A program made the position numbers and the translations under genes. A DNA stretch of 64,000 bases from Larus michahellis (lineage: Eukaryota; Chordata; Aves; Charadriiformes; Laridae): NCBI RefSeq assembly GCF_964199755.1, contig NC_133899.1, positions 310,001 through 374,000 on the forward strand, given 5' to 3'. Below the pieces are notes generated by a model. That model had not been told where the DNA came from and searched no databases. It saw only the letters and a list, made by a program, of their open reading frames with translations. Positions 9,501 to 50,380 of this stretch are shown here, piece by piece. The first letter of the stretch is position 1; each line of letters opens with the position of its first letter.

Positions 9501-12500
9501 TGCTGTGAGACTGCATGGGTTGGAAATTGTTGGCAGTGCAGCTGAAGCTTCATGTTGCTTCTTGACTGTGGAAGTTCCTACCCCTGTTCTCCAGCCAGCC
9601 CTCTTTGCCTTCAGGGAACAGAGGAGTCCAGACTTAACTCCTGAGGCAGTCTTCTGACTGTCAGGCTTTTGACCAGGGGTTGGAGCTGCACTTTGAAGTT
9701 GCTAGGCTGGTAGTGTGCCAAGATTCAGTCAAGGAAATCAGGTGAGTTTTGTGGGGTGGGAACGGCATAGAAAAATGCAGAAGTGCCCTGCCTTCAGACC
9801 TGCAAGGGAAGGGACGGGACCAGGTCAATGGCTCTTGGAGATGATTTGTTGCAAGGGTGGAAGGTGGGAGCTGAAGAGAGCACTGTTTTCTGAATTCAGT
9901 CATGTACAGGGTATCTGTGTAGACTGGAGAGTGGCAGAAGAGTGGGGTGGCTTGGAATCTGAATATGGTCTCAGCAAGGCTGCACTGTTTTTTTTGTGGA
10001 AAATTTGGGCCCAGTATCATCAGCTGGCTGAGGGTCCAGGCGTAAATATGCTGAGGACTTGTGTCAAGTCTAGGGTTTCAAGGTATAGTTGTGTTACAAG
10101 TAAGGGTAGTACAAAGCCTTGAGTGAGCCAGAGATCTCTTTCCTCTTTTGTGATACTGCACTTAGGAGAAATGGCTCAGGTATGCTTAAGGCAGGGTATT
10201 ACCCTTTGTCTCCTGGTACTTCTTGTGCCTTGAAAGGTGAAGTGTTTAGTCGTAGAATCATAGGGTCGGAAGGGACCTCTGGAGATCATCTAGTCCAACC
10301 CCTCTGCCAGAGCAGGGTCACCTAGAGCAGGTTACACAGGAATGTGTCCGGGCAGGTTTTGGATGTCTCCAGAGTTGGAGACTCCACCACCTCTCTGGGC
10401 AGCCTGTTCCAGTGCTCTGCCACCCTCAAAGGAAAGAAGTTCCTCCTCATGTTTAGGTGGAACTTCCTATGCTCAAGTTTGTGCCCATTACCTCTTGTCC
10501 TCTAGTCATGCTGGTTCTTTAGAATAACCCACAGTCCTGTTAGCTGTGTCTGGTTGCTCTGGTGTGTCTGGTGACTCATCTGACTTGATGCTTGAGAATC
10601 TTTTCCTAGCAAGTATAAACTGTATCAGGTTGGGTACTTGCCTGCATTTATCTTAGACTACTGCTTTCTCTGACTCCCATGGCAGCTGTAGGTGTAGTGT
10701 GTCCCATGGCTGCTCTCCCAGGTGAGTACTCTGATGCACGACTCTAATCTTTCTGTACAGGAGAACTTCAATGGCCTGCCAGTGGGGACCTACCAGCCTT
10801 TCAGTAACATCTGTCCACCACCAATTCCAGCAACTCCACCAACATATGAGTCTGTAAGTGCCTGAGCTGAATTACCATTGTGGGCAGCAGAGGGAATGTC
10901 AAAAAGAGTGCAGTGGTAGTCACGGAAAAGGCAAATGTTCATGAAGCACATTACTGTCAACATTTGGAGCTTTTGGGGTGGTGCTTGGCATTGCTTACGG
11001 GGATGGTGAATCACTGAGTGCATGTGATGGGAGAATGACTTGTGAGCAGAAGTTCCTCATTCTGTTGTGTGCTTGGGCTGCAAAGGAAAGCCAAGATCTA
11101 TTTTACTGCATTGTTAAAATGGTGATAAACAGCTAACAAGTAGAGTCCACAAATTCCAGGGGTTTTTGCAATGTGAGGGGTTTATCACCTTCAGTCTGTT
11201 TAGTTAATGGCTTTTGAACTAATTCATAGTTAGCCTGGATGAACATTTTGGCTGACCCAGATGATGTGTGTTTAAACACTCCTCCTTTCCCAGACTTTTC
11301 TCAGTCCTTGGGGACAGCAAAGGAGAGGCTGAAGTCTTCTCGTTCTGTGCTTGCCTATGTTTTTGCTGCTGCAGTTATGATCATGCCTCTCATTTTGCTT
11401 TCAGTGACTTGCTGCTTGTTTCTGCTGTATCCTGAGTAGGGATGAGTGTAGCCAAGCACCTGTGTGTGCTAACACCTTGTACTAGCTGCACAGCAGGCTT
11501 TGAGTCCAGGAGATGCAAGCACAGATGCAGCAGTTATTTGCAGGGTAGAGATAGATGGCACTGACTGCAGCCCACAGGAATGATGAGTTATACCAGCACA
11601 ACTGACCATGCCATGGGCCTTCGTCCCAACCAGACCAAGACCTGAGATGGGGTCATTTTGTACCTTGCGGCTGGTTACAAGGACCTATCTGTTGCTTATG
11701 AAAGAAAGGAAGGAGTAGCTGTGATTACGTGGATGAAGAGGGCAGTCTTCTCCCACTTATGTCCTTGATAAATGTTTTAGACCTGCTAGTGGATATGCTC
11801 TGTTTATCCAGTTATAGAGTATGGCCAGTGAAGCTGCTTTGATTGACAGGGAGGGAGAGGAAACTCAAAGCACTGCCTCCTTTTCTTGGGAAGAGAGGCA
11901 GATTCTTCCGAGTGTGCTGGAAGCCAGGCTCATTGTAGGGGAGGGGTGAGGTACGCGTTACTCTGCATGGGTGTGGCTGCTGTTGCCCATGAGCAGCACC
12001 CACACATCTGTGTGATTCTGTGCCTGGTAGGAGAGAGCACTGTAGTAACTGAGAGTCTTTTCCAGATTGATGAGCCTAACACTGACAAGGAAACTGCTGC
12101 ACCAGCCGCTGGTGAGTATGTCAGGAGGTACGGGAAACCTAGGGTAGTATGGGGCTGCAGTTAGCTTTCCATATGGGGAACAATGTGTAGAACTCAACAC
12201 ATCTTGAGAGCAGGATTTGAGTTTAGAGAGGACTCTGATGGAAATGGAGAGTATCCTCTCGAAACTGGGAGGATCCAGACTTCCACTGGGAAGCTCAAGA
12301 ACTAGAGTTTGACTTCCAAGTCAGTACTGAGTCTCCAGCTTAAGCTGTCTCGTCAGACCGGGTATAGGACATTGCAGGGTAAAATGAGAAAGCAACAGCT
12401 CTAAGGGATAATATATTTTTTACACAGCATAAATAATATTGTTCTGCAGCAACAGAATGAGAGAAGTAAGCACTGAGAGGGTAGGTAGGTTTGTATTAAT

Positions 12501-14813: not shown

Positions 14814-17800
14814 ATGGCGGTGCCGCTGCGCGTGAGCGCCCGGGGGGCGGCGGGAGGAGCGGGGACCTACCGGACGGGGCGTGATCGGGGGGTCGCGCTT
14901 GGCCGGGGGCGGCTGGGGCTGGAGCGGGCAGTGCAGCGGCGGGGGGAGGGATGGGATGTGGGCGGGGCAGAGGGCGGGTGCCGGGATGGGGTGCCGGCGG
15001 GGCGGGGCGGCGGTGCTGGGGCGGGGTGCCGGGATGGGGTGCGGATGGGGTGCCGGTACCGGTAAGGGATGTGGGATCGGTGCCGGGGTGGGGTGCGGGC
15101 ACGGTGCTGACCCCTCGTTCAGGGGCGGCTGCGAGCGCTGGCGGCGGCGCTGGGCGGCTGCGGGCTGCTGCTGGGCTCGGCGCTGGCGGCGGGCGACGAG
15201 CGGCTCTACACGGCGGCGGTGATGCCCGCGCTCCGCGTCCTCCCCCCCGAGGCCGCCCACGGCCTGGCCCTGCGCGCCGCCGCCCTCGGGCTGCTGCCAT
15301 CTGCCCGTCCCGACGGCCCCGCGCTGGTACGGCTCTGCGGCGGGGGACACCGGGGTGGGGTGGCCAGGGCGGGGGGTGATGGCCGGGGGGTGCAGCCGGA
15401 GCGGCGGCGGGTGGCGGGAGGATCGCAGGGCCCGGGGGGGTGGGCAGGCAGACGTGTCCCAGAGTGACTCCAGACCCGTCGAGGTCCGTGGGGGGCAATG
15501 AGCTCTGCCCGCCGGTGGAGGTGCCCCACAGGGCTGCTGGGGTGGCCCAGGGTGCAGGAGATGGCCCTGGTGTGGGTCCCCCGGGGCAGGCAGCCGAGGA
15601 GGACACCCTGTGGGGCAGAGGGGATGGAGGGGAGGGGGTGGCTCCTGCGGGGGCTGGAGCGAGGCCCTGGCTGTGGCTCCTGGTGTCAGTGGGCTCTAGC
15701 CCTCCTGGCTCCCGGCTGCCAGAGTGTGACCCGGTCCCTGCCCCGCAGGAGGTGCAAGTCTTCGGCCAGCGGTTCCGCAACCCGCTGGGCCTGGCAGCTG
15801 GCTTCGACAAGCAGGGCGAGGCTGTGGACGGGCTGTACAAGATGGGGTTTGGCTTTGTGGAAGTAGGGACTGTCACACCTGAGCCCCAGGAGGGGAACCC
15901 CAGACCCAGGGTCTTCCGGCTGGTGGAGGACGAGGCGGTCATTAACAGGTGGGATCTGAGGGTGGCTGCTCCGCCGTGTCCCACGGGCTGGGGTGGTCCC
16001 GGCCTTGTGGTCTGTGCTGTGGTTGCTCTTGGGTTGGATGTGCTGAGCAGAGCTGCAGAGACCATGTATCTCCCTCACTTTTCTCCTGTGTCCTGCTCAG
16101 GGCTTGTGGACACCAGCCCAGCCCTGAACCTCGTCTCTTCTGGTGCAGGTATGGATTCAACAGCCACGGCCACGCTGCAGTGGAGCGCAGGCTGCGGGCC
16201 CGCCAGGAGACACAGCTCAGGCTCACTGGTGGTGAGACAAGCTTATAAACCTTTGCTCTTGGTGTCCGCAGGGTGGGTTTGGGGGTCTCCCAGGTAGCTG
16301 TAGGCTGGGAAATGTGCGTAACACCAGTGTCCAGGCACAGGAAGGCCCTGGCCAGAGCGGGGTGCGCTCAGACAGCAGGAACCCTATTGGGGCTGTAGCC
16401 TCTCCCCCTTGGGACTGTGACCAGGCACCTTTCTCCTGCCATTTTCTCTGTGATAGAGGCTGCGCTTGCTTCTCTGGGCAAGACATTTCTGCTGAGACTG
16501 GCCAAAGCCAATAGGGCCCCATCTGTGCAGTTTCCAAGGGCAGCCTCCGCTGGGTGGTCAGGCTGGAGGCTGTGGTGCTGGAAGGTGCTGACCGGGGCAG
16601 CTGTGATGACGCTCCTGTGGCTGCAGGACAGTCCCAGGCCCACCCTCGTGAAACATGTGGGCTGCATATCCCTGTCTTGATTTTAGCTGGTCCTGGGGCC
16701 TCCCTTGTCAGGCACTCTGGCCCCTTAGGTGGCGGTTGGTCCTGCCGCACTGGTTCAGCCATGTCTGTGTTCCAGCGGGGATGCCCCTTGGAGTCAACCT
16801 GGGCAAGAACAAGAGCTCTACCAACGCTGCAGCTGACTACATGGCTGGGGTCCGGACGCTGGGCCCTTTGGCTGACTACCTAGTTGTGAATGTGTCCAGC
16901 CCAAACACTCCAGGGCTGCGGGACCTGCAGGGCAAGGCTGAGCTGCGGGACCTGCTGACCAAGGTGGGTGACCCTCACAGCCAGCCCAGACCACACCTGC
17001 AGCACTGGGTGCCTCCCATCCCCTGACTGTTCCAGCCAGTGGGTTTGCCCCAGCGCAGGGAGGAGCATGGTGGGCAGAGCCACCGAGATGTCCCTTGATC
17101 AGCCGCTGGTGCGGTGTTCACAGGGTGCCGTGCTCCAGCAAAGGGCATGTGAGCAGTGAGGAATTGCCCTCTGCTCCGCCCCGGCAAAGGGGCAGCGAGC
17201 CACCCACCCCACAGCACTGGGAGTCACTGTGGTCCTGTGCAGGTCCTGTGTCCCTGGCCCTGTGCCGTAGGGTGCTCGTCCCATCGGCTGGGGACATGTA
17301 GGGAGAGCAGGGCCTGTCCCTCTGCTGCCTGTGGCGTTGGGTGCGCTCATCTCCCCGTCTGGGGCAGGAGGTGTTCCCCGTGACACACTGCTCTGTGCCC
17401 CGACATGTCCCCATGCAGGTACTGGCGGAGAGGGATGCGCTGCCCTGCGAGCGCAAGCCAGCCGTGCTGGTGAAGATTGCCCCTGACCTCACCACGCAGG
17501 ACAAGCAGGACATCGCTAGTGTCATCTGCGAGGTGAGGAGATGGGAAGGGGAGGCTGGTGAGGAGCCGGGCTGGTGTGCCTTCTGCCCTCTGCACAGCAC
17601 GGGGGCAGGACCCCACTGCTCCTGACAAGTCACCTTTCTGAAGGGACAGGAGGACCTGCAGCCCTCTAGCTGCCATAGGGACGGTGTCCTAGGTAGCTCT
17701 CAGTCTGTGAGGGCCTCTGTGCATCACCTGGACCTTGGGGACAGTCCAGGCAGTGAGGGGCAGCTGCTTTGTCCCCATGCACATTGCTGAGGTGCTTGCC

Positions 17801-18489
17801 AGGGGCGTCCTGGCCTGGCAGCCTGGGGTTGAGTGTGGGGGACTGCTCATGGCGGCTGTGTCCTCATGCTGCTGCCCGCCTCAGCTAGGTGTGGACGGGC
17901 TGATTGTCAGCAACACCACAGTGAGCCGCCCCAGCAGCCTCCGGAGCAGGCAGCGCACAGAGCCCGGGGGCCTCAGCGGGAAGCCCCTGCGGGAGCTCTC
18001 CACGCAGACCATCAGGGAGATGTACTCCCTCACCCGAGGTAGGGGCAGAGTAGGGCTTGGGGGCGCCGGCTGGCATTGCCCGTGCTCTCCTGACCCCGCG
18101 CCTGCCCACAGGCCGGGTGCCCATCATCGGCGTGGGTGGGGTGAGCAGCGGGCGTGATGCCCTGGAGAAGATCCGTGCTGGAGCCTCGCTCGTGCAGATG
18201 TACACAGCGCTTGTGTACCACGGGCCGCCGGTGGTGGGGGTGGTGAAGCGGGAACTGGAGGAGCTGCTGAGGTGAGTGGGGAGCCAGGCACCTCCCCAGG
18301 GAGTCCCTGGGCCCAGGGTGGCTCTCGGCAGCCGCGTGCTGGAGCACGAGCAGTGGTACCACGGGGCCGAGCCGCAGTGCCAGGCTGGCCCAGCCGTCAC
18401 ACACATCCCTATCCCTGGTTAGGGAGCAGGGCTTCAAGAACGTCATGGAGGCGGTTGGAGCAGATCACCGGTGCGGAACCAAGATCTAG
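14814..18489 (+). CDS. DHODH: Dihydroorotate dehydrogenase, mitochondrial (class 2)
   Basis: Oxidises dihydroorotate to orotate with ubiquinone, the fourth step of pyrimidine synthesis, at the outer face of the inner mitochondrial membrane. Exons are 14814-14831, 15123-15326, 15749-15948, 16149-16231, 16776-16963, 17419-17532, 17885-18038, 18112-18271 and 18423-18489. The total is 1188 nt and 395 residues, the usual animal length. The N-terminus is a short Arg-containing leader followed by a hydrophobic Ala/Leu/Gly anchor (about residues 10-29) and GDERLY. FMN-barrel motifs follow: [29 protein letters not shown], and VNVSSPNT with the class 2 catalytic Ser at about 210. Further on are VKIAPDL, the NTT segment, and [12 protein letters not shown]. 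Exon 1 encodes only six codons. The C-terminus runs four residues past the GADHR-R end of the human protein. Confidence 0.97.
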
Positions 18490-19019: not shown

Positions 19020-21422
19020 TGTTTGGCTCACCTGGTCCTGTGTGCTGCTCTGGGGACATCCCTTGGGTTGGAAGGATGCAGCCTGGCTCTCCTCAGCCAA
19101 GCGGGATCAGCTGTCTTTACATTGTTCCCGATCGGTGCATCTTTTCCCAGTGATAGAAGCTGCAGGGTAAGCTGGGCTCTGGGATGGATCCACACAAAGT
19201 TCAGCAGGGCTCCCCTTGAGGAGACCTCTGCCTGAGGCTGGGCCCTTGGGAGGCGCTGGGCACCGTTTTTTCCCTTTGCTGCCGGTATGCAGATGTTTGG
19301 AGACAGCTGTGGTTATGCCCTGTCACTCGTTATGGAAAGGCACTGTTTGTTCATGCTTTTGGAGGCTCTCGGTTTTGTATTTGGGGCCTCTGGCATTGGC
19401 TGCTGCTTTCCTCGGACTCCCTGTGGTCATCTTGGGCCTTTCTTGAGCAAAACATCTTGATCTGGACATGGTGTTCCCTCTTCAGTCTCTCGCAATCCAC
19501 CCTGCAGAGCAGGATTGCGTCAGAGCACTTCACCAAGCCTGTTTACAGGAGGAGCAGCACTGCTGACCCCACTCGCAATGGCCCTCGGCTCACATCAGGG
19601 CTGTCACCTTCTGCACCAGACCCTTTGTTTCCTAGCTTCTCTGCTTTGGACAGGTGGCACTTACTGCTGCTCTAACAGGGATGTGACCTGGTCCGTTGGC
19701 CGAGGTTTTGATGTGCTTTCTCTGGAGAGCGCCCGGGAGGCACTTGCTCCCCGTCTGAAGGTGACTGTCATGCCTGTGGGATTGTGAGCTTGAGTTTCAC
19801 CTTGTCCCACAGCACTCTTGTCTGTGCTCTGCAGCTGATCCAAGACTGTGGCTTGGAGACATTCAGTGCCTTGCGCTGCCACGGCACTTGCCGGTGGTGT
19901 TGGCCTCGAGCATGGCCCTGCGCTGGCATAGCCCGGTGTGTGGTGTGCGGTCCGTGCCCCGTGGGCAGGCTGGGGCAGCTTCCCGCACCTTCCTGCTGGC
20001 AGTCCCTTTGCCTGAGCTAACCTTGAGGCTGACGAGCGGGCACCACGGCGCAGTCGCGTAGTTTTTTCTCCCCCTGCCAGGGCATGGCAGTCTCCTGTGG
20101 AGGGACAAGCCTGCTGCAGTGGGACAGAGCTATCTAAGCCTGCTATCATCAAATGCCACAGCACCTTTCTAAGTGCTGGCATGGTTCATGGATCGGAGCT
20201 GTCAAGCCCTGATGCATCCTGTGCTGGATTCTAGCCTTCTGTGCTCCAAGGGTGGTTGGATAAGTATGACTGGTGCTGGTCCAGAGGTGTCAAGCCCTGC
20301 ATTGTTTAGGGGAACAGGTGCCCCATGAGATGAGAGGAAGCTTGCCCAGGATGGGAAGGCTCCTTCTGGGGTGTCTGGGGCCACACACAGATGTCCCTCC
20401 TGAGCCTGAAGGACTGGAGAGTCCGAGGGGCAGGAGGGGCTCGAGAGACCCCCACCAGGCCAGGCTTCGATGGCTCAGGGCTGGGGCTGGCCCCCCATGT
20501 TCCAGACGATTTTGGGGTGGCCTCCCTGCGACACTGTCACCCTGGGGTAGGTAAGAGTGTCGGTGCCTGTCCCCTCCGCGCCGTGCTGCCCCTTGGTTGT
20601 GCTCCTGCTGGAAGCAGACTCTGCTCGTTGGAGCAGGCTGATGTGCTCTGCCTGGCGCCCTTGCTGCTGGCCTGCCACATCCAGCTGGGCACGGGCCAGC
20701 GATTGCCGCTGCGAGTTCCCGTAAGGCTGGGCTGGGCCCTGGCCTCTGCTGACAAACAACCTGCACCCGAGGGGACGGGGGCTGCCGGGAAGCGGGGCTG
20801 GAGCCTGCTGGGCAGGAAGGGGTGGGTGCTTGTGGGAAGAGGTCAGCTTGGCCGCAGTCCCTCAGAGCCTGCAGTGAGCTGGCATGGGACATGCTGCACC
20901 CCTCGGCCCGCCGGGCTGGCACTGCCCAGGGCTCTGGTAGCCCCGAGCCCTGCTGCACCCCACCTTTGTGTCTGTCAGGGTGTGCCCCGGTGGTGGGCAC
21001 AGCCAGGCACAGGATGGGATGGCTCCTGTGCCCCAGCTTCACCTGCCAGCACCGGGGCGGCTGCGTGCACCCCGTGGGGCTGCCGCGTGCCCCCACAGGG
21101 ACTGCTCTAAGTGGTGGCACAGGGCAGTTTTGCAGGGAGCAGTGGCTGTCTCTGCTTTCTGTGAACCTCAGCTGGTGTCACAGCGCCAGGGCACCAGCGT
21201 CTGCAGCCAGATCCCTCCCTGCATATTTGTAGCTGCAAAATCCCAGAAACTCTTGGCACACTGGCTTCCCATGGGGGCTTGGGCAGGCTTCCCGGGAGCC
21301 TCTGCCAGGCCGGCTGTGAGCCAGGTGGGGCTTTTTGTGCTCCTCCTGCTGGGAAAGGTGCTGGCTGCATACAGCAGGTCAGGAGGTCTGGGAGCACACA
21401 GGTCTGCACCAGGGCGAGGGAG
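19020..21422. other. DHODH-HP intergenic interval
   Basis: No coding exon recognised on either strand. In particular, nothing resembles the thioredoxin-like TXNL4B. GC-rich frames stay open by composition only. The one notable element is the upstream copy of the direct repeat that flanks HP (20266-20732). Confidence 0.6.
20266..20732 (+). repeat. HP-flanking direct repeat, upstream copy
   Basis: 467 bases starting 'atgactggtgctggtccaga' and ending at 'gttcccgtaaggctggg'. It recurs in the same orientation at 23600-23969. Aligned by eye, the copies differ by two substitutions (20534 region A/G, 20705 region T/C), a 2-base 'ga' insertion in the downstream copy, and 99 bases (about 20545-20643) present only here. 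It is not recognisable as a known transposon. Confidence 0.93.
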
Positions 21423-21510
21423 GTGGCAATAAAAGGGATCAGGAAGGAGCCCTGAACGGCATCGGCTTGCAGAGGAGGCTGCTGTGAGGAGAGGGAGCTA
21501 CAAGCATGGG
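21423..21510 (+). promoter_or_regulatory. HP core promoter and leader exon
   Basis: A TATA-like AATAAAAG (21428-21435) lies about 75 bases before an ATG at 21506-21508 that is followed directly by a GTGAGC donor (21511). This spacing suits a TATA-driven liver gene with a short first exon. No strong C/EBP or STAT3 consensus was seen nearby. The start site is inferred. Confidence 0.5.
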
Positions 21511-23352
21511 GTGAGCATTGTTGGCACGTCCCTGCACATACTCGGTGCTGTGTCTGTCTGCCTTGCCTGGCTGAGGACCTGGCCCTGCGGTGGGCTGTGG
21601 CAGGAGCTGTGTTGGGACTGAAACGTTCTGGGTCCCAACGCTGCAGACATCCTCCACAGCAGTAGGGTCCAGGTATGGCCCAGGTGACTTCTCCAGGCTG
21701 TTTCTCTACTGAGTGTGCCTTCTCTTCCCTGCAGACCTGCAGTGCTGCTGATTGCTGGCCTGGCCTGGACTGTGCTGGAGACTGCAACTGCCTCCGGTAC
21801 CTTCCAGGGCAAGGGTGGGAGCACTGGGGCTCAGATGAAGCCAGGGACAGCTTGGCAGGGAGCAGGCATGGGGCAGGGAGGACAGGACTGGGGAGGGACC
21901 TGCCAGAGCCGGGCGCGATGTTCTGGGCTGGGTCCTCTGGGAAGCTGAGCATCCTCTGTCTGCAGACTGGAGCTGTGCAAAGCCTGCGGAGATTGAACAT
22001 GGCTATGTGGAGCACCTGATCAAGTACCGCTGCAACCCGTACTACCAGCTGCGTGGCTCCGGTGATGGTGAGGCATGCGGCATGGGCACAGCACCCAGGG
22101 ACGGGGCTTGTCCCCAGCTCCAGGGGATGCATGGGGCTGCACCGAAGCTGCATGATGCAGCTCCCCTCCACCTTCCCACCTTCCTGGGGGGGACGAGTAG
22201 CTACCCCCACTCCCCCAAGCCCTGGGGAGTTGCAGGTACCTCTGCACCTCCCTGGCTGTGGGGTCCATCCCCCGCCTTGCGGGGCAGGCGTGCTAACTCT
22301 GGTTTCCCTCCAAAGGCACATACAAGTGTGATGAGGATCACGCGTGGGTGAGCCCTGAAGCTGGCAAGGAGGTGCCTGTCTGTGAGCCAGGTGAGGGCAG
22401 AGCAGCAGGGGCTGGGGCTGCAAGGGGCAGAGTGGGTGGGAGGCTGTGAGGGGTCTGCCTGGGCAGCTGAACGGGCTCCTCGCAACCCCGATCCTCAGTG
22501 CTGCTCCCTGTGGCTGCTATGGGCCAGGAGGCACCTGGTGCCTGCCGGCCTCAGACAGCTCATCAGAGCCCTGCTCTGCCCTATGCAGTGTGTGGGAAGC
22601 CGAAGAACCCCCCCAGGCAGATGCAGCGCATCATCGGGGGCCTGCTGGCTAGGAAGGGCAGCTTCCCTTGGCAGGGCCGGCTAGTGACCCGCCACAACCT
22701 CACCGTGGGGGCCACACTCATCGGTGACCAGTGGCTGCTGACCACGGGCAAGAATGTCTACCTGAACCACAGTGAGGACACCAAGCCAGAGGAGATCGCG
22801 CCTACGCTGCAGCTCTTCCTGGGCAGCCAGAAGCAGCTTTCCTTGGACATCGAGCGTGTGGTGCTGCACCCCGGCTACCCCGAGGATGTGGATCTGGCCC
22901 TGCTGAAGCTTAAGCAGAAGGTGCTCCTTGGAGAGGAGGTGATGCCCATCTGCCTACCCCAGAAGAACTATGTGCGTCCAGGGCGGGTGGGTTACGTCTC
23001 AGGCTGGGGCCGAGGTGCCACCTTTGCCTTTCCCAACATGCTGAAGTATGTGATGCTGCCTGTGGCAGAGGGCGAGAAGTGCAGGCAGTACTATGAGGCA
23101 CGGAATAAGTCCTACGGGGTCCACCCCATCCTCAGCAATGACACCTTCTGTGTGGGCATGAGTGAGCTGCGGGAGGATACATGCTACGGGGATGCCGGCG
23201 GCGCCTTTGCCGTGCAGGACCCCGATGATGACACCTGGTACGTGGCCGGCATCCTCAGCTATGACAAGACCTGCACGGCCTCCAAATATGGTGTATACGT
23301 GGATGTGCAGCGTGTCCTGGACTGGGTCAAGGAGACGGTGGCGGCCGGCTGA
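21506..23352 (+). CDS. HP: Haptoglobin
   Basis: Plasma glycoprotein that captures free haemoglobin. Exons are 21506-21510, 21735-21796, 21966-22067, 22316-22390 and 22589-23352: 1008 nt, 335 residues (human Hp1 about 347). Residues 1-22 form a signal peptide (MGPAVLLIAGLAW, then ETATAS), with the Gly codon split across intron 1. One sushi/CCP domain (about 23-83) has Cys at 26, 45, 61 and 79, and C83 for the link to the beta chain. The processing site is QMQR|IIGG (R95/I96). The beta chain is a serine-protease fold without activity: the His position is Lys (TTGKN, K136), Asp is kept (D183), and Ser is Ala (GDAGG, A284). Family signatures include HNLTVGATLI, CLPQK and VGYVSGWGRGA. There are three N-glycosylation sequons (118, 141, 254). 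Two features differ from mammals: the fourth sushi Cys and a short loop before YGVHPIL. No frame breaks were found. Confidence 0.95.
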
Positions 23353-23368
23353 GGCAGGGCTGTGGGGG

Positions 23369-23374
23369 AATAAA
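23369..23374 (+). terminator. HP poly(A) signal
   Basis: AATAAA 17 bases after the HP stop codon, giving a very short 3'UTR as is typical of haptoglobin. A GT-rich stretch ('gtgcctgtgtgtgtctgtgc') follows, suitable as a downstream element. Confidence 0.8.
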
Positions 23375-23599
23375 ACTGCTCCACACCCAGCTGCAGGCTC
23401 TGTCTGTGCATGGCGCTACGGCGGCGTGCCTGTGTGTGTCTGTGCGTGGGGGTGAGCGTTGTGTGTGCACCTGCCCCTTGGAGGGGGTGCCTGTGGGGTC
23501 CTTGCAGGGCTTCCCCTGGAGGGGTGGCGGAGGGGCCTTGTCTGCAGGGACTGCCTGGGGCTCTGTGGAGTTCTTCCCCCCATCGCCCCCTGTATGAGC

Positions 23600-23969
23600 A
23601 TGACTGGTGCTGGTCCAGAGGTGTCAAGCCCTGCATTGTTTAGGGGAACAGGTGCCCCATGAGATGAGAGGAAGCTTGCCCAGGATGGGAAGGCTCCTTC
23701 TGGGGTGTCTGGGGCCACACACAGATGTCCCTCCTGAGCCTGAAGGACTGGAGAGTCCGAGGGGCAGGAGGGGCTCGAGAGAGACCCCCACCAGGCCAGG
23801 CTTCGATGGCTCAGGGCTGGGGCTGGCCCCCCATGTTCCAGACGATTTTGGGGTGGCCTCCCTGCGACGCTGTCACCCTGTGCTCTGCCTGGCGCCCTTG
23901 CTGCTGGCCTGCCACATCCAGCTGGGCACGGGCCAGCGATCGCCGCTGCGAGTTCCCGTAAGGCTGGGC
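23600..23969 (+). repeat. HP-flanking direct repeat, downstream copy
   Basis: 370-base copy of 20266-20732 in the same orientation, lacking the internal 99 bases of the upstream copy. Identity over the shared part is above 99% by eye. The start-to-start distance is about 3.33 kb, and the interval contains the whole HP gene. It ends where a GC-rich imperfect tandem repeat begins. Confidence 0.93.
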
Positions 23970-24190
23970 CGGGTGTCTGGGGGGGTCTCCCCGATCCCTC
24001 CCGTGTGTGTGGGTACCTGCGGGGTTCTCCCCTCCCCGTGTAGGGGGGTGTCCTTGGGATTGTCCCCATGCCCCCCGCGTGTGGGGGGTGTCTGTGGTGT
24101 TCTCCTCTCCCTCCGCCCGGGTGTCGGCGTGTCCGCAGGGTTCGCACCCCGCTGTCTCTGGGGGTCTCCCTGGGTGTTCCGGCCGCGCCC
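23970..24190. repeat. GC-rich degenerate minisatellite
   Basis: Imperfect copies of a unit around 55-65 bases containing 'ggggtgtctg...gttctcccctccc' (for example near 24020, 24085 and 24150). It lies between the downstream HP repeat and the DHX38 promoter. No gene was recognised. In mammals the start of TXNL4B would be expected here on minus. Confidence 0.6.
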
Positions 24191-24592
24191 TCCCCACCCG
24201 GAAGTCGTCCCGTGGCCACGTGACCACCTACGGTATCCGCACGCCGGAAGTCCTCCGAGGGACGCGTAGCGTGTCTTGTCTAGAGGTGGTTGGACTCTAT
24301 GGTGGTTGCTACCCCTATAGGCTCTGGCCGCCACGTCTATGGTGCAAGTGGGCTAGAGCGGCTCGTCTGGCGGAGCACTGTGGGGCGGCCATGGCGGCGC
24401 TCGGGGAGCTAGTTTACGGTCGCTGAGGCAACTGCGAGCAGGTGTGGGGGTTGTGGGAGCGGGGCGAGGAGCGGCAGACCGGGGCAGCCCTCCGGTACCG
24501 ACCCTCCCGCTGACCTGTGCCTCGCAGGCCCCATGGGTGCCCGCCGCGGCCCGGCCGCCCGGCCCAGCCAGGCGTGGTAGCGGTCGGCGGTG
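24191..24592 (+). promoter_or_regulatory. DHX38 promoter and 5'UTR
   Basis: Two ETS/GABP-type CCGGAAGT sites (24198-24205 and 24244-24251) flank a CACGTG E-box (24217-24222, within CACGTGAC). A GC-rich transcribed leader follows. ETS plus CACGTG also characterises the DHODH promoter. The leader may be spliced, since a GT-rich candidate donor ('caggtgtggggg', near 24440) precedes a CAG at 24528-24530. This is uncertain. Confidence 0.55.
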
Positions 24593-34560
<9,968 letters not shown>

Positions 34561-46588: not shown

Positions 46589-47090
46589 CACGGAATCACG
46601 GAATCACGGAATCACGGAATTTTTCAGAGTTGGAAGGGACCTCTAGAGATCATCTAGTCCAACTCCCCTGCTAGAGCAGGATGGCCCAGAGCACATCACT
46701 CAGGACTGCATCTGGATGGGTCTTGAAAGTCTCCAGAGGAGGGGACTCCACACCCTCCCTGGGCAGCCTGTTCCAGGGCTCTGTCACCCTTGCCATAAAG
46801 GAGTTTTTTCTCATATTTGTTCAGAACTTCCTATGTTCCAGCTTGTGCCCGTTACCCCTCGTCCTGTCACTGGGAACCACTGAAAAGAGTCTGGCACCAT
46901 CCTCCTTAAACCCACCCTTTAGATACTTGTCAACATTAGTAAGGTCTCCCCTCGGCCTTCTCTCCTCCAGGCTAAAGAGCCTCAGCTCTCTCAGCCTTTC
47001 CTCATAAGGGAGACGCTCCGACCCCTCCATCATCTTTGTTGCCCTACGCTGGACTCTCTCCAGTAGTTCCCTGAACTAGTTTCCACCCCT
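46589..47090 (-). repeat. CR1 retroposon 3' end, well preserved
   Basis: Begins with four 'cacggaat' tail units, then 'agttggaagggacctctaga' and 'gatcatctagtccaac', the diagnostic complement of CR1. On minus, the frame at 47033-46821 still reads as the CR1 reverse-transcriptase C-terminus ([20 protein letters not shown] and so on). This is the youngest CR1 in the window. It is 5' truncated near 47090. Confidence 0.93.
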
Positions 47091-48524: not shown

Positions 48525-49035
48525 GGTAAGAAGAGGGCAAGAAAAAAAGGCCGAAAAAGGGTGGAGGCTGAAAAGGGATGGGAGGCAGAAAAAAGGCTGG
48601 GAAGATGACAAGAAATTAAAGGCCAAAAAGCGGTGGAGGCTGACAGAAGGTGGGAGGACCAAAAAGGAGAAAGAGGTTAAAATGAAAGATGAGGCTAAGA
48701 AAGGGGGGGAGAACAAAAAAAAAGCGGGAGGCTGAGAAGGGCAGGGAGGCCAACAAGAAAGTAGAGGCCCAAAAAGGGGTAGGGGTGGAAAAAAAAAAAA
48801 TAGAGGCTGAAAAAGGGTGGAAAACTGACAAAGGGATGGGAAGCCATCCAAAAAATTAGAGGATGAAAAGGGATGGGAGGCAGAACAAGGGTGGGTGGTG
48901 GAAAAGGAGTGGGGAAAGTCAGCAAGAAAAAGCCAAAAAACAGTGAGAAGCCAAAAAAGGGTAGGAGGCCAAAAAAACATGGAAGGCCAAAACGGTGTGG
49001 GAGGCCAAAAAGAAAACAGAAGATAAAAAGGATTA
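48525..49035. repeat. Minisatellite block 1, purine-rich on plus
   Basis: Imperfect tandem copies of a roughly 20-base unit, such as 'gggaggccaaaaagggtggg' and 'gaggctgaaaaaggg'. Plus-strand purine content is very high. Its complement is the unit of block 2, so blocks 1 and 2 form a large inverted repeat about the point near 49050. Confidence 0.9.
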
Positions 49036-49064
49036 CAGAAAGGACAAGAACGTAGATGCCCTTT

Positions 49065-50380
49065 TCCAACTTCCCCGACTTTTTGGCCTCCCACCCTTTT
49101 TCAGCCCCTTCTTTCTTGTTGGCCTCCCATGCCTTTTTGGCTGCCCACCCCTTTTTTTGCATCTCACCCCTTTTTGCCTGCTTCTTTCTTGTTGGCCTCC
49201 GGCCCCCCTTCAGCCTCCTACCCCTTTTCAGCCTCCCACCTTTGTTCGGCCTCCCACTCCTTTTTGGCCTCTACTTTCTTTTTGAGTGCCCATCCCTTTT
49301 CAGCCTCTCACTCTTTTTCGTGTTTTATGTTCTTTTTAGCCTTCCACTTCTTTTTGGCCTCTAACCACCTTTTTAGCCTCTGACCGTTGTTTGGCCTACA
49401 CCTCTATTTGGCCTCTACTTTCTTGTTGGCCTCCCACCCTTGCTCAGCCTCCCACCCTTTTCAGCCTCCAACAGTTTTTTGTTCTCTTCTTTCCGGTGAC
49501 CTCCTGTCCCATTTGGGTCTCCCAGCCCATTAGAGTTTACCCTCCTTGTTTGGTCTCCCACCCTTTGAAGCTTCTAATTTCTTGTCTGCCTTCCTCCCCA
49601 TTTCGGCCTCCCGCCCTTTTTTGGATTTCAGTCCCTTTTCAGCATTTACTCTCTTGTTGATCCTCTACCTCTTTTTGGTCTCCAGACCCTTTCTGGCCTC
49701 CCACCCATGTTTGGCCTCCCACTCCTTTTCGACCTCTACTTTCTTGTTGGCCTCCTCTCCATTTTAGGCCTCCCGTCCTTGTTCATCATCCCACTGCTTT
49801 TTAGCCTCCCCCGCTTTTTCAGCCTGTAATTTCTGGTTTGCCTCCCACCCCATTTTGACCTCCAACTCCATTTCAGCCTCCCACATCACTTCCCACACTT
49901 GTTCAGCCTCCCCCTACTTTTCAGCCTCTACTTTCTTGTTGGCCTGCCACCCTTTTTCCATCTCCCACCGCTCTTTGGCCTTCCCCCCTCTTTTCAGCCT
50001 CTACTTTGTTGTTGTTGGCCTATCCCCTTTTTGGCCTCCCACCCATGTTCAGCCTCCCACCCTTTTGGCCTCTACTTTTGTGTCGGCCTCCCGCCCCTTT
50101 TTGGCCTCTAATTTCTTGTTGGCAGCTCACCCCTCTTTGTTCTCGCACCCGTTTTCAGTCCATCGCTTTTTTTTTTGTGCTGTTTTCTTGTTGGTTTCCC
50201 ACTCTTCATCCTCTCACCCATGTTTGGTTTCCCACCCTTTTTCGGCCTCTACTTTCCTGTTGGCCTCCCACTCATTTTCGGAATCCCACACTTTTTCAGC
50301 CTCTACTTTCTTATAGTCCTCCTACCTACGTTTGGCCTCCCATCCCTTTTTGGCCTCTATTTTTAAGTTGGCCTCCCACC
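49065..50380. repeat. Minisatellite block 2, pyrimidine-rich on plus
   Basis: Around 65 imperfect copies of GGCCTCCCACCCCTTTTTCA. A variant monomer, 'ggcctctactttcttgttgg', recurs every few units and suggests a loose higher-order arrangement. All reading frames stay open for long stretches because the unit lacks stops. I do not regard these frames as genes. Confidence 0.92.

Follow-up and report, generated by a model that had tools for sequence, protein, structure and literature searches.

Does a pair of near-identical direct repeats that brackets the haptoglobin gene (HP) of Larus michahellis explain a proposed repeated loss of this gene in birds, or is it a local event in the history of one genome? 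Both zebra finch and chicken were listed without haptoglobins in a 2010 comparison (PMC2865498), and the loss in chicken is stated again in a paper of 2021, with PIT54 named as the substitute (PMC8081666). A literature search, which covered titles and the starts of abstracts, returned nothing on this repeat or on the HP region of any bird that has the gene. In this paper we describe the HP gene and its neighbors, compare the two copies of the repeat with each other and with the rest of the genome, and weigh how the pair may have arisen, how old it may be and what a crossover between the copies would do.

Methods

The window is the whole stretch of DNA analyzed, 64,000 nucleotides in length, and all positions are counted from its first letter unless another sequence is named. 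Near-identical pairs of sequences were sought in 264 kb, made up of the window and 20 neighboring 10-kb tiles and containing 637 N; the search used the dust filter and a word size of 16. Further copies of the repeat were sought in the genome (1.405 Gb) with 467 bp of copy 1 as the query. Ages were calculated with the zebra finch mutation rate of 2.0e-9 per site per year (PMC12047795) and with half of that rate, the latter being our own choice for slower birds.

Results

The gene that lies between the copies is an intact HP (Table 1). Its introns are of the GT/AG type, the spliced product is uninterrupted, and the protein has the one CCP unit and the trypsin-like domain by which a haptoglobin is recognized; its best eight PDB matches are all haptoglobins. 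A protein search of the genome found one HP locus, the next best place reaching 41% identity, and so there is no second haptoglobin gene in tandem of the HP/HPR type. All five coding exons sit between the two copies, and the neighboring genes lie outside the pair, with four DHODH-family exon matches at 15749-18269 on one side and a DHX38/PRP16-like exon at ~29785-30024 on the other. In the human genome TXNL4B is located between HP and DHX38. This gene was rejected as a neighbor here: no TXNL4-family (DIM1) match was found between HP and DHX38 (23380-24600), and the six DIM1-family matches in the genome are on contigs C1 and C2, with zero on C4. The globins of the genome mark it as a bird's: of ten globin places, two exons were compared with the PDB, and among single-domain chains both match bird hemoglobins best. 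In the alpha search, fused two-domain chains of human origin come ahead of the bird chains, since each of them is matched twice.

Table 1. Features of the HP locus and of the repeat pair, in positions of the window.
Feature	Position	Strand	Description
Intact HP gene	21506..23352	+	exons 21506-21510, 21735-21796, 21966-22067, 22316-22390, 22589-23352; 335 aa
Copy 1, direct repeat, probable source	20262..20736	+	475 bp; 769 bp ahead of the HP start codon; holds 20543-20641
Copy 2, direct repeat, probable insertion	23596..23973	+	378 bp; ~220 bp past the HP AATAAA (23369-23374); degenerate array on both flanks
99 bases of copy 1 without a counterpart in copy 2	20543..20641	+	ends share a 2-base TG microhomology; taken as lost from copy 2
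Minisatellite, left part, decayed, G/T-rich	23442..23596	.	~36-38-bp unit; score 45 with a unit picked by eye, 40 shuffles 16.3 +/- 4.0
Minisatellite, right part, decayed, G/T-rich	23974..24190	.	~36-38-bp unit; score 111 with the same unit, 40 shuffles 19.5 +/- 3.9

The copies stand in direct orientation. In the core alignment, copy 1 at 20266-20732 and copy 2 at 23600-23969 share 368 aligned bases with two substitutions (20533 A / 23869 G and 20704 T / 23941 C) and two indels, a 2-base difference in the length of a (GA)n run and a 99-base gap; this re-alignment agrees with the sequence-only reading, which had described same-orientation copies with these differences. The wider alignable block, whose limits are those given for the copies in Table 1, adds a few bases at each end and comes to 376 columns with five substitutions. 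All five are transitions, with A or T in copy 1 and G or C in copy 2, and three of the five have CG in copy 2 where copy 1 has TG or CA. The longest perfect run between the copies is 183 bp (20266-20448) and the second longest 84 bp. A BLAST search within the window gave E = 4e-142 for one piece of the pair and 6e-41 for the other; the pair is therefore not there by chance. The similarity breaks off sharply at both ends of the copies.

In the genome search, in which simple repeats and very common words were skipped, copy 1 was found at two places only, without a third copy of the repeat and without a second place for the 99 bases at 20543-20641. Because no further copy was found, the pair is not a repeat family, and a transposable element is likewise not favored. 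Within the 264 kb, nothing but the two pieces of this pair reached both 90 bp and 90% identity. Beyond the copies no similarity better than E 0.027 was detected apart from the repeat itself, and a wider ancient duplication around the copies was rejected on this ground.

Other repeated sequences were also noted. The segments 10262-10501 and 46626-46865 form a dispersed repeat pair of 78% identity, possibly an old transposable element, and dense, 18-bp-based minisatellite arrays occupy 48530-50380, where a purine-rich part is followed by a pyrimidine-rich one on the + strand. Mitochondrial cytochrome b has a nuclear copy (L034 1501-2058; G000 C38:16886248-16886805), whose reading frame is interrupted even under the mitochondrial code.

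The flanks of the two copies differ in kind. Those of copy 2 hold a decayed minisatellite, whereas those of copy 1, scored against the same ~36-bp unit picked by eye, give 8.0 and 9.5, with shuffles at 8.6 +/- 1.3 and 10.3 +/- 1.9, and thus show no array. When the unit was learned from the right flank of copy 2 alone, the left flank scored 34.5, against 20.2 +/- 5.4 for 200 first-order resamples, and this was the best score among 1082 stretches of the window after those overlapping the right flank were set aside. At least one of the 200 resamples exceeded it, however (highest 38.5), and the evidence for an array on the left side is for this reason moderate. If the flanks of copy 2 are joined, the array continues with a register slip of ~4 bases, which fits an insertion and proves little. 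Since copy 2 lies inside the decayed array and the flanks of copy 1 lack one, copy 1 is probably the source and copy 2 the insertion.

We consider it likely, with a probability of about 0.72, that the pair arose by a recent, one-way duplicative insertion of the ~475-bp upstream segment into the downstream array, in the ancestry of this bird. A segment present once, upstream of HP, would have been copied to the downstream side of the gene, into a G/T-rich minisatellite in decay; most likely a break or a stalled fork occurred in the minisatellite, and its repair used the segment 3.3 kb away as a patch or template. Copy 2 would afterwards have lost 99 bp, which is how we read the gap, and one or other copy would have gained or lost a single unit of the (GA)n run. 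The assembly itself shows the two copies and how far they diverge, the failure to find another copy, and an array that flanks copy 2 alone; the mechanism of repair, like the direction, the age and the recombination potential of the pair, is what we infer from these features. At the junctions no poly(A) tail and no target-site duplication of at least 5 bp were found by eye, the exact ends being blurred by near-matches, which also leave junction microhomology unclear. A quadruplex-prone target was considered as the site of breakage and dropped; the array contains no canonical quadruplex motif, and so no special break site is claimed.

The same order of segment, HP and segment would be left by a tandem duplication of the upstream segment together with HP, as in HP/HPR, followed by loss of the second HP. 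This origin is improbable: the next best place for HP in the genome, at 41% identity, is not a second HP locus, the array flanks copy 2 on both sides, and the interval from copy 1 to HP finds no similarity past the end of copy 2 (none better than E 0.027), which makes a remnant of any larger HP duplication unlikely. One of the copies might instead have been misplaced in assembly, and our conclusion is drawn from the assembly itself. Such an artefact is hard to reconcile with copies that have different unique flanks and are told apart by as many as five substitutions and by two indels, or with an HP gene and outer flanks that are all single in the genome; a false haplotype duplication should have doubled HP too, and the single HP speaks against an artefact, to which we accordingly give very little credence.

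The repeat pair is without evident function. From the positions of the copies, one in front of the HP coding sequence and one shortly after the AATAAA, the duplicated segment could be taken for a regulatory element whose second copy was kept by selection, but this seems to us extremely improbable. No Rfam match at gathering score was found in 19800-24600, no Pfam match was found for 20334-21110 on the + strand (the frame overlapping copy 1 among the 10 of 153 listed open reading frames that were scanned), and the youth of the pair alone accounts for its identity.

As to that youth, two differences in 368 bp correspond to 1.4 My (0.16-4.9) at 2.0e-9 per site per year and to 2.7 My (0.33-9.8) at half that rate, and five differences in 376 bp to 3.3 My (1.1-7.8) and 6.7 My (2.2-15.5). 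Provided that there has been no gene conversion, the estimated age of the insertion would be 1.4-6.7 My, with intervals that together span 0.16-15.5 My, and decay of CpG among the differences would make the pair younger still. A pair 60 My old and free of conversion would be expected to show ~44-88 differences, uncorrected for repeated hits. An old pair could look young through gene conversion, and copies 3.3 kb apart can convert; the pattern of A or T in copy 1 and G or C in copy 2 at all five differences is a bias that GC-biased conversion might also produce. We nevertheless find it unlikely that the pair is old, common to other birds and kept alike by conversion. The 99-bp gap is still there and has not been homogenized, which is a mild objection, and the change from CG to TG or CA at three of the five differences is what decay of methylated C in copy 1 would give.

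Discussion

The three alignment blocks are offset from copy 1 to copy 2 by 3334, 3336 and 3237 bp, and a crossover between the copies would remove as many bases, depending on the block. The arithmetic of the sequence-only reading is thus right: such a crossover would delete ~3.3 kb, with it the five HP coding exons, and would spare the DHODH and DHX38 exons located here. As to its further proposal, that crossover deletes or duplicates HP, the geometry allows it, but no deleted or duplicated HP allele is seen in this one assembly: HP has a single locus, and in the genome search each of the two outer flanks was found at a single site. A human study of NAHR took segments of at least 1 kb and at least 90% identity as substrates (PMC4425883). 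The pair is well above this identity (371 of 376 aligned bases), but its copies, at 475 and 378 bp, are shorter than the segments of that study, and we infer that they are a weak substrate for a crossover deleting or duplicating HP.

Could the pair nonetheless be a standing NAHR substrate in birds that accounts for repeated HP loss? Its geometry would delete HP cleanly. Copy 2 adjoins a CpG-rich stretch (23974-24600; CpG observed/expected 0.74 and 0.79), and in zebra finch the 100 bp around CpG islands show a 1.36-fold enrichment of crossovers (PMC12047795); NAHR has, moreover, given rise to extra copies at human HP/HPR (PMC3898332). These points are set against short repeats, whose longest perfect run is that of 183 bp, an assembly without a deletion or duplication allele, and an apparent age of 1.4-6.7 My, and we judge the proposition highly improbable. 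The earlier suggestion that the pair offers a simple explanation of HP losses recurring among birds thus finds no support here. The chicken and zebra finch lineages parted far earlier than 1.4-6.7 My ago; their losses should far predate the pair, which at its apparent age cannot have caused them. HP is also GC-rich (61% in exon 5), and its absence from early assemblies could in part be a sequencing gap.

The duplication is real and local, and HP happens to lie between its copies; it is probably recent and probably private. The more useful fact is that this bird carries an intact, single-CCP HP, whereas chicken and zebra finch are listed without one (PMC2865498). A recent pair with a CpG-rich, perhaps recombination-prone flank might also mean that presence, absence and duplication of HP segregate within the species, as a live model of HP loss; we think this improbable, although, if deletion alleles did segregate by way of the pair, the tolerance of haptoglobin loss would be testable in a living bird species. 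If, as is more likely, none do, the pair amounts to a minor structural feature of a single genome.

Comparison with known systems places the locus as follows. Boettger in 2016 reportedly described recurring exon deletions in human HP, where deletion between repeats in the gene is analogous to the event that this pair could bring about; those deletions lie inside the gene and recur in people, whereas here no deletion is seen. With human HP/HPR the pair has in common the locus and direct repeats able to misalign (PMC3898332, PMC4425883), but the human repeat is 16 kb long, contains the gene and has 94% identity, and the repeat described here is below 0.5 kb and excludes a single-locus HP. In form the pair may also be likened to class 2 templated sequence insertions (TSIP; PMC5110952), in which a segment from another part of the genome is copied into a new site; no poly(A) tail and no clear target-site duplication were seen at the ends here, so far as these blurred ends can be placed. 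The putative source, copy 1, is in place in the genome search. In the class 2 cases described, however, the patches come from distant regions, whereas this source lies on the same strand at a distance of 3.3 kb from a target that is itself a decayed minisatellite.
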